Origin: Saprospiraceae bacterium
Lineage (GTDB): Bacteria; Bacteroidota; Bacteroidia; Chitinophagales; Saprospiraceae
Direction of reading: 5' to 3'
DNA length: 36,777 nucleotides
Assembly (NCBI GenBank): GCA_007125435.1
Contig: SLDF01000131.1
Location: 1 to 36,777, forward strand
The position numbers and the translations under genes were made by a program. Below the pieces are notes generated by a model. The model worked only from the letters and a program-made list of their open reading frames with translations, was not told the DNA's origin and did not search any database. Position 1 is the stretch's first letter; every line of letters starts with the position of its first letter. Of this stretch, positions 3,881-27,972 are shown piece after piece.

Positions 3881-3930
3881 AGCCTCAGCGAGGCGACATA
3901 TTAGTAGCCCGGGGCGTCAGCCCTGGGTTT
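3881..3930. repeat. REP-like double-hairpin element
   Basis: GCCTCagcGAGGC hairpin, then gacatattagtag, then CCCGGGGCgtcaGCCCTGGG hairpin. Confidence 0.65.
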
Positions 3931-4177: not shown

Positions 4178-4216
4178 AGCTTGTAGCTTGAAGCTTGAAG
4201 CTTGAAACTTGCAGCT
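4178..4216. repeat. 7-bp tandem repeat (agcttga)n
   Basis: agcttgt agcttga agcttga agcttga aacttgc agct. Confidence 0.85.
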
Positions 4217-4228
4217 AAATACTACATT

Positions 4229-4393
4229 CTGCGTGAGGGATAGAAGCGATATGAACAGGAATAGCATAGTTGGTGGAGCGCTGGAGGGAGGGGCGACCGA
4301 ATGGAAGCCACTCAAAACAGCAGCGATACCCTATGGTAGACCTGTGAATACAAGCGGATAGCCCGACCCCGCACGGTAGTAAGGGGGCACGCC
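4229..4393 (+). repeat. Family A dispersed structured element, copy 1
   Basis: CTGCGTGAGGGATAGAAGCGATATGAAC ... GTGGAGC ... GTGAATACAAGCGGATAGCCCGACC ... CACGCC, matched in reverse complement at 15529-15704. Confidence 0.85.
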
Positions 4394-4417
4394 ATAATCA
4401 TCCAAAGTCCTTGAAAT

Positions 4418-15400: not shown

Positions 15401-15528
15401 AGTTTATTAAGATTATTGGGTTTGCTACCGTCATCTTGACGATCTGCCCCAAAAATAACAATTGAAATGGTTTTATCTCATATCTTAACTTGACTTTTAT
15501 ATTGTGCATATTGTTATTGGAGTTTCTG

Positions 15529-15704
15529 GGCGTGACCTCACCACCCAGCTAAGGCTGGATGGTGAGGTCGGGCTATCCGCTTGTATTCACTACATATCTA
15601 TGGAGTGTCGCTACAGATGATGTTCGGCTTCTTCCAGTCGCCGACACATCTGTGCTCCACTAACCATAGATATATAGTTCATATCGCTTCTATCCCTCAC
15701 GCAG
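15529..15704 (-). repeat. Family A dispersed structured element, copy 2
   Basis: Reverse complement carries CTGCGTGAGGGATAGAAGCGATATGAAC, GTGGAGC, exact 25-mer GTGAATACAAGCGGATAGCCCGACC and CACGCC as in 4229-4393; terminal hairpin at 15534-15569. Confidence 0.85.
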
Positions 15705-15767
15705 TCAAGTTTGATTATTATGATTGAACACAAAGTAAAGTAGTGCCAATGAAGTTTAGTCGTCGCC

Positions 15768-15950
15768 GAGCCAGAGGTGGCTCGGTTCCTTCGTGTAGGA
15801 TTGCGATTTTGATCAAGAATTGAAGAAGCTGAGCCGAGGGCGGCTCAGTTCTCTCGTTATTGGATTGACGTTTTTGATGATGATTAGGTCGACGCTTAGC
15901 CAGAGACGGCTCAGTTCCTTCGTTATCAGATTGACATTTAGTCAATCTGA
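15768..15950. repeat. Three ~63-66 bp tandem units each starting with a GAGCC..GGCTC hairpin
   Basis: GAGCCagagGTGGCTCGGTTCCTTCG (15768), GAGCCgaggGCGGCTCAGTTCTCTCG (15831), tAGCCagagACGGCTCAGTTCCTTCG (15897), each followed by GATTG(A/C)(C/G)(G/A)(T/A)TTT-type sequence. Confidence 0.85.
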
Positions 15951-15958
15951 TTGCTACG

Positions 15959-16018
15959 CACCACTCAGTCATGCACCGTTCAGTCATGCATCATTCGGTC
16001 ATGTACCATTCAGTCAAG
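15959..16018. repeat. 15-bp tandem repeat x4
   Basis: caccactcagtcatg / caccgttcagtcatg / catcattcggtcatg / taccattcagtcaag. Confidence 0.9.
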
Positions 16019-16074
16019 TCCCTCCCTCCAGCACTTCACTGCCTATGCCATACCTGCTCATATCGCTATCCCTG
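16019..16074 (-). repeat. Family A element, partial copy 3 (5' block only)
   Basis: Reverse complement CAGGGATAGCGATATGAGCAGGTATGGCATAG...GTGCTGGAGGGAGGGA aligns with copy 1 GAGGGATAGAAGCGATATGAACAGGAATAGCATAG...GCGCTGGAGGGAGGGG. Confidence 0.8.
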
Positions 16075-16286
16075 TTTATGTATTGGAAATTCGTAGTGGA
16101 TTTTCCATGCATAAAATGGGTTCTAATCCATCACGCAAAGATTATTTTATCAGCTGTCAGCTGGCTTAATATTGATTTTTGAAGTAGAAATTTTATTTCT
16201 AAGAGGGTGCATTTTACTTTGTCTTTTATTCTGGTGATGTCCAGTGCGACAAGGTGGACTTTGCCCTTTTACGGCAGAATATAGGG

Positions 16287-27716: not shown

Positions 27717-27788
27717 TTATATTTGACAACAAAGAATTCGGTGGTTTTGAAGATGATCGACAACATGGTATTCGGATCGGACTTGAAA

Positions 27789-27890
27789 TGCATAAGCGAT
27801 GTGAAAGGGTGGCGACGTCAGGAGCCAGACTCTGCGCAACGGTAGTGGAGTAGAGGCCGACCGTTCAGGGAGCCCTGTAACGTAGCGACC
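27789..27890 (+). repeat. Family B dispersed element, copy 1
   Basis: AGCGATGTGAAAGGGTGGC...GCCAGACTCTGCG...AGAGGCCGACC.TTCAGGGAGCCCTGTAACGTAGCGACC; matched in reverse complement at 33488-33601. Confidence 0.85.
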
Positions 27891-27972
27891 GCTCATCTCC
27901 CATAATATTGATCAATCTCAATGGTGTTAAGGGCTTACCGTGCATTGGCTTTTATGAACGATTATAAGGGAG

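Follow-up and report, generated by a model that had tools for sequence, protein, structure and literature searches.

A repeat locus in the genome of a Saprospiraceae bacterium (contig SLDF01000131.1) raises the question of whether a structured element has grown from within or pieces of several elements have been brought together. It lies on the minus strand of the window, i.e., the whole 36,777-nucleotide (nt) stretch of DNA analyzed. The initial annotation described it as a family A element whose internal region had expanded or as a chimera of two copies. We found that the chimera part of that reading holds, whereas the expansion part does not. In our view, the locus is probably a mosaic of interspersed repeats, in which an independent hairpin element, designated module C, is nested and spreads as a DNA hairpin.

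Composition of the locus

The layout described for the minus strand was recovered, with four 15-mers and three hairpin-bearing units following a head block. The head block, at 16073-16019 (-), matches family A copy 1 with a local score of 59, whereas none of 2000 shuffles scored above 29. The four 15-mers occupy 16016-15957 (-), and the stems of the hairpin units lie at 15914-15895, 15848-15829, and 15785-15766 (-), spaced 66 and 63 nt apart. Since the family A covariance model (R1) yielded only two full copies in the window, 4229-4395 (+) and 15704-15527 (-), the 3′ half of the first A element is truly missing before the next copy, as had been annotated. The locus folds better than 100 of 100 shuffles (z = -4.0), and it is not a chance arrangement, because its modules come back at about 40 other places in the same genome. 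Its features, together with the reference copy of family A, are as follows.

16074 to 16096 (-): 3′ end of repeat family D (CTACGAATTTCCAATACATAAAC), replacing the A basal stem TGCGTGAG at the A head
16017 to 16073 (-): 5′ half of family A (head block), up to the apical-loop junction GGGACT/TGAC
16002 to 16016 (-): 15-mer 1, TGACTGAATGGTACA, assigned as the outermost C 5′ stub; aligns to the single C of contig C374 at its 5′ end
15987 to 16001 (-): 15-mer 2, TGACCGAATGATGCA, assigned as a C 5′ stub
15972 to 15986 (-): 15-mer 3, TGACTGAACGGTGCA, assigned as a C 5′ stub
15894 to 15971 (-): complete innermost C core, 78 nt (covariance model R2, 100.3 bits, E 6e-23), with 15-mer 4 (15971-15957), the S hairpin (15951-15925), and the H hairpin (15914-15895)
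15828 to 15880 (-): second hairpin unit, assigned as a C 3′ stub plus linker (R2, 26.0 bits, E 1e-4), with the 3′ half of S (15869-15848) and an H hairpin (15848-15829)
15765 to 15815 (-): third hairpin unit, assigned as the end of an inner tail and then the outermost C 3′ part (R2, 26.1 bits); it has an H hairpin (15785-15766), and GGAACCGAGCC...GGCTCGGCGACGACTAAAC aligns with the sole C of C374
15705 to 15764 (-): C tail or spacer, leading straight into the next A element
15527 to 15704 (-): complete family A element (R1, 152.5 bits; z = -10.6), a predicted three-way-junction RNA with a Flavo-1-like core
4229 to 4395 (+): family A copy 1, the reference (R1, 167.7 bits), with an un-inserted apical loop, GACCGAATGGA

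Upstream, the head block is joined to the end of family D at about 16096-16074 (-), a junction that also occurs in contigs C374, C33, and C310; the consensus end of D, CATTACGAATTTCCAATGCATAATCCGGGTTAG, is found in C201 and C365. The loop junction of the head, GGGACT/TGAC, is the same as in nine complete A elements. Two open reading frames, 15718-15987 (-) and 15820-16182 (+), fall mostly within repeat sequence. The product of the gene upstream of the element is a two-component-type sensor containing Reg_prop and Y_Y_Y domains, and the downstream gene gave no Pfam hit. Both genes have the same orientation as the element, which may therefore be cotranscribed with them, possibly affecting messenger stability; a host function need not be assumed to account for the data. 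Promoter-like sites were not above chance. An orthologous empty site for the window was not found, and the neighboring protein in the nearest relative is 47% identical.

Independence and conservation of module C

Module C is separate from family A and possesses a 78-nt core with three hairpins, a constant internal spacing (15-mer-11-S-16-H), and a fixed 5′ end, TGAC, that is retained in nearly every context. The basal part consists of a two-pair helix between G.A mismatches: columns 8-50 and 9-49 alternate among AT:AT, GT:AC, and AC:GT with tandem G.A on either side, an arrangement that looks like a kink-turn-type motif. Within the own genome, 9 of the 25 core pairs are compensated, a level reached by 0 of 500 shuffles. 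Across genera, 71 distinct sequences are 96.8% paired, with compensation in 23 of the 25 pairs. The score was 0.82 in this alignment (A4), which was fitted to the model and thereby favored and whose rows are not independent, versus the far lower 0.05 to 0.12 for slid partners.

Like a miniature inverted-repeat element (MITE), C is short, noncoding, multicopy, and interspersed, and the R2 search gave 106 matches in the own genome, about 60 of which are full cores. It lacks the terminal inverted repeats of a MITE, the ends TGAC...GGC not being mutual inverted repeats. Where un-inserted and filled sites were compared, the tip was replaced and a clear target-site duplication was not seen. Six C-bearing loci from four genomes gave no match to Rfam 15 at E ≤ 0.5, and none was credible in the window; nor did we find a description of C in the literature, of which our coverage was partial.

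Among relatives, the R2 search detected C 27 times in genome G010, 8 times in G003, 3 times in G001, and once, at a borderline level, in G004. Overall, C is present in 19 of the 148 sampled genomes of the host family (15 of 112 genera), and a phylum-wide sample of 346 genomes, searched with stricter filters, gave matches in just two, both of the host family. Expansion from within family A presupposes that the 15-mers and 65-mers do not occur apart from it, and they do: G003 carries 8 C and, at the sensitivity used, 0 A. Phage and plasmid collections gave no match, and no mobilizing enzyme linked to C was found.

Transposases of the Y1 (HUH) family occur in 14 of the 19 C-bearing genomes and not in the other five, among them the own genome (G000), which is the richest in C copies. 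Y1/RAYT as the driver of C is therefore unsupported.

Family A and the level of conservation

The core of family A, AAGCGGATAGCCCGAC, occurs 134 times at ≤1 mismatch in the own genome (3.9 Mb, 429 contigs), versus 0 times for the reversed control. An alignment of 50 copies yields a three-way junction whose basal stem is GCGTG/CACGC and whose other two helices are a long arm and a P3 hairpin; compensatory changes were seen in 17 of the 35 predicted pairs. Shorter relatives exist in the same genus (G001), in the same family (G006 and G010), and in other families of the order (G017, G035, and G036).

Flavo-1 (RF01705) is the sole plausible Rfam match of family A and its short relatives. The window copy of family A scored 17 bits, below the gathering cutoff of 42, and a Flavo-1 search of the whole own genome at E ≤ 0.01 gave one match of 26 bits, again below the cutoff. 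Family A carries the conserved internal-loop motif of the Flavo-1 core in a two-strand arm of the alignment. Flavo-1 was also the top match for the short relatives in G036, G035, G006, and G017, at 27 to 33 bits, and a more distant order-mate, G012, has 87 Flavo-1 matches. Several relatives match Flavo-1 first and yet score below the cutoff; family A is therefore Flavo-1-like, in a diverged and enlarged form, and by its score not a member. Both share the core GAU.GAAGCGGA...AGCGGAUAGC paired arm and occur as many repeats per genome; family A differs in its added basal stem, P3 hairpin, and long covarying arm and in carrying C in a loop. This clarifies the anatomy of the Flavo-1 relatives, Flavo-1 itself being a motif of no function known to us. 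In F. psychrophilum, Flavo-1 is reported to be placed both sense and antisense (PMC9723704). In a small sample (n = 17), family A showed no orientation bias with respect to genes.

Selection at the RNA level tolerates G-U pairs and does not tolerate A-C on the same strand. In family A, 48 G-U versus 6 A-C were counted, and in C, 24 versus 19, a result to be taken as a lead and not as proof, since the sequences are related. It suggests that, on the strand read here, family A is maintained as RNA and that C hairpins are maintained at the DNA level or through templated correction of palindromes. Such wobble asymmetry offers a simple way of telling RNA-like repeats from DNA-like hairpin ones.

Many A elements are immediately preceded on their 5′ side by short tandem repeats (AGCTTGA, ACAACTGACAACCG, and AACCCGCAACCCGTA types), as at 4178-4216 in the window.

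Insertion sites, nesting, and origin of the locus

In nine complete A elements, C occupies one position in the apical loop, where it replaces the 10- to 11-nt loop (GGC/T-TGAC...TAAA/AGCC). Eight of the nine have arms 91 to 99% identical to those of un-inserted A elements of the same arm type; in the ninth, C331, the value is 68%, with 92% in the 5′ arm and a 3′ arm that is apparently out of register. The arms of different C-inserted types are 47 to 68% identical to each other. Since the inserted types differ while each resembles its own un-inserted type, C must have entered A loops several times. It also lies immediately upstream of A at seven loci, with a constant distance of 69 to 71 nt from H to A, after the A basal GCGTGAGGG, in repeat families D and E, and, in G010, in the P3 loop of A-like elements.

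In three genera (G001, G003, and G004; loci L164, L168, L169, L181, and L165), C is inserted at nearly one place within RHS-type genes, recognized by translated motifs without a family search, and the frame is ended between the YxPFG and xGARxYD motifs. It is also found beside genes for tRNA-Met, -Met, -Phe, and -Cys (L255, L272, L265, and L261 in G155, G098, G050, and G150, respectively). In the first three genomes, it adjoins tRNA 3′ ends with duplicated tRNA-end fragments, which in G098 are arranged in tandem as a short array that includes terminator-like hairpins; in G150, it is about 110 nt from the tRNA. A tandem array of C with 135-nt spacing and alternating H-hairpin types was observed at L224 (G010:C298:4351-5124).

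Family D has copies at L198, L200, L199, and about 30 more places in the own genome. Its tip is AT-rich where the copy is empty and is replaced by C in C201, C332, C117, and C104, which provides a further un-inserted/filled pair. C201, with a single C, is 94% identical outside the insert to C332, where the same outer C has its S and H separated by an inner C of about 140 nt. C201 and C117 are 89% identical, and the outer stub of C117 retains the D-specific 15-mer TGACCGACTGG as well as the D-specific 3′ H and tail. C374 and the window have in common the D end, the A head, both ends of the outer C, the tail, and the next A, and the window carries, within this shared frame, about 190 nt more C sequence than the single-C contig. 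This comparison of un-nested with nested paralogues shows that the 15-mers are leftover 5′ ends of outer C copies and most 65-mers are their 3′ parts. Pairing of outer stubs in nested order was obtained for 7 of 13 pairs, against 5.2 under the null (p = 0.09), and since this order test alone is not significant, the case for nesting rests on the un-nested/nested pairs. Stub base-pair matching was consistent with nesting in C421, C324, C331, and C325 and not significant overall; in the window, it holds for the innermost pair only and fails beyond.

In minus-strand order, the proposed mosaic consists of the D end, an A 5′ half, a C array, a C tail, and a complete A. C has also inserted into itself, either between S and H or between the 5′ 15-mer and these two hairpins, and every such event leaves two remnants of the outer copy: its 5′ end, a 15-mer, on the left and its 3′ part, a 65-mer-like unit, on the right. 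Because an A 5′ half is joined to a C-then-A arrangement, the window locus is read as a chimera: a locus like C33, with C in the loop of A, most probably recombined within C with a C285- or C74-like locus, in which C precedes A. The product, A 5′ half-C-tail-A, would account for the missing A 3′ half. C374 has the same order of A head, C, tail, and next A, and elsewhere, A elements combine C in the loop with a complete 3′ half. The single-C chimera would be kept in C374, and the window copy, a nested version of it, would have gained further C later, a direction that we infer. The A elements would fold and be selected as RNA, and C, with its hairpins kept at the DNA level, would spread as a nonautonomous element using machinery in trans, perhaps via single-stranded DNA or template switching at hairpins.

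Tandem expansion, in which slippage or unequal crossing over would generate the repeats from the A loop GACCGAATGG, is very unlikely. Although the loop GACCGAATGGA resembles the 15-mer TGACYGAATGGTGCA and some runs are near-identical (C69), C has its own three-hairpin structure conserved in 15 genera, some without A, also occurs in D repeats, in RHS genes, and beside tRNA genes, and bears host-specific variants in its outer 15-mers, as stubs should. Replication slippage could instead multiply the 15-mers of a C unit inserted once per locus, a possible but doubtful account. Part of the 15-mer growth may indeed be slippage, the run in C69 being an example of identical or nearly identical copies, and in several arrays the 15-mers outnumber the 3′ units; against it stand the true nesting in the C201-C332 and C201-C117 pairs and the matching stub types in C421, C324, C331, and C325. 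The assembly of 429 contigs is broken at these repeats, with many ends inside them, and some junctions could be errors. That short-read assembly joined nonadjacent repeats here is nevertheless highly improbable, for C374 has the same junctions with different sequence and the C-in-A-loop junctions were found nine times.

We also regard it as unlikely that C is a functional structured RNA, e.g., a protein-binding or regulatory one with a kink-turn-like base, duplicated along with transcripts or 3′ untranslated regions. Its very strongly conserved structure, the G.A-flanked basal helix, and the many intergenic copies would fit such a role. However, G-U and A-C are about equally rare in C, unlike in A, reading frames of RHS genes are interrupted, tandem arrays are formed, and the gene context is not constant; the lack of orientation bias of A in the small sample (n = 17) counts on the same side. 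Returning to the nested mosaic, a more tentative extension is that C represents a novel class of mobile elements, DNA hairpins aimed at existing hairpin tips, i.e., those of other repeats, of C itself, and possibly tRNA 3′ ends. Its arrays would then be nested dolls, in which the 5′ end is fixed, the tip is replaced, and outer copies persist as matched 5′ and 3′ stubs. In C, covariation is near-complete across 15 genera, wobble pairs are almost absent, and hairpin tips have been replaced repeatedly. If mobile, C would be a tractable case in which the target is a secondary structure instead of a sequence and nested stubs log the order of events.

That no named element has such a layout, as initially annotated, is too strong, since two known systems share the general layout, not the sequence. 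We know of no sequence relation between C and BOX of Streptococcus pneumoniae, and the two were compared by layout only (head, variable tandem internal modules, tail). BOX is built as boxA, n copies of boxB, and boxC; it is interspersed, rich in stem-loops, and thought to be parasitic, and BOX, RUP, and SPRITE insert into each other (PMC3049150). Terminal inverted repeats and target-site duplications, which are present in BOX, were not seen for C, whose structure is conserved in its own right and whose nesting splits it into stubs. BrickBuilt (MITEPgRS) of Porphyromonas gingivalis, likewise in Bacteroidota, is intergenic and runs from leader through minisatellite to tail (PMC4596501), but it has IS5-like terminal inverted repeats and is confined to one species or genus, whereas C lacks such ends and spans 15 genera. 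Small palindromic repeats are also typical of the REP/RAYT systems (GTAG and CGTC families), which are clustered and at times lie inside genes (PMC3733652); C differs in that it has three hairpins, carries TGAC at one end, and nests head to tail, and Y1 transposases are absent from the most C-rich genome.

The window contains other repeats as well. Structured repeat family B, at 27764-27900 (+) and 33625-33488 (-), follows the pattern AGCGATGTGAAAGGGTGGC...GCCAGACTCTGCG...GCAGAGGCCGACC.TTCAGGGAGCCCTGTAACGTAGCGACC, with an insert in one hairpin that differs between copies; G010 sequences related to it have C in the same kind of loop. A subthreshold Rfam match to Acido-Lenti-1 lies at 3900-3927 (-) (29.6 bits, cutoff 37, E 8e-5). 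Direct repeats of 46 to 48 nt at 1-126 and 2288-2411, 2.29 kb apart, flank the first gene, a 441-amino-acid open reading frame resembling an M23-type peptidase.
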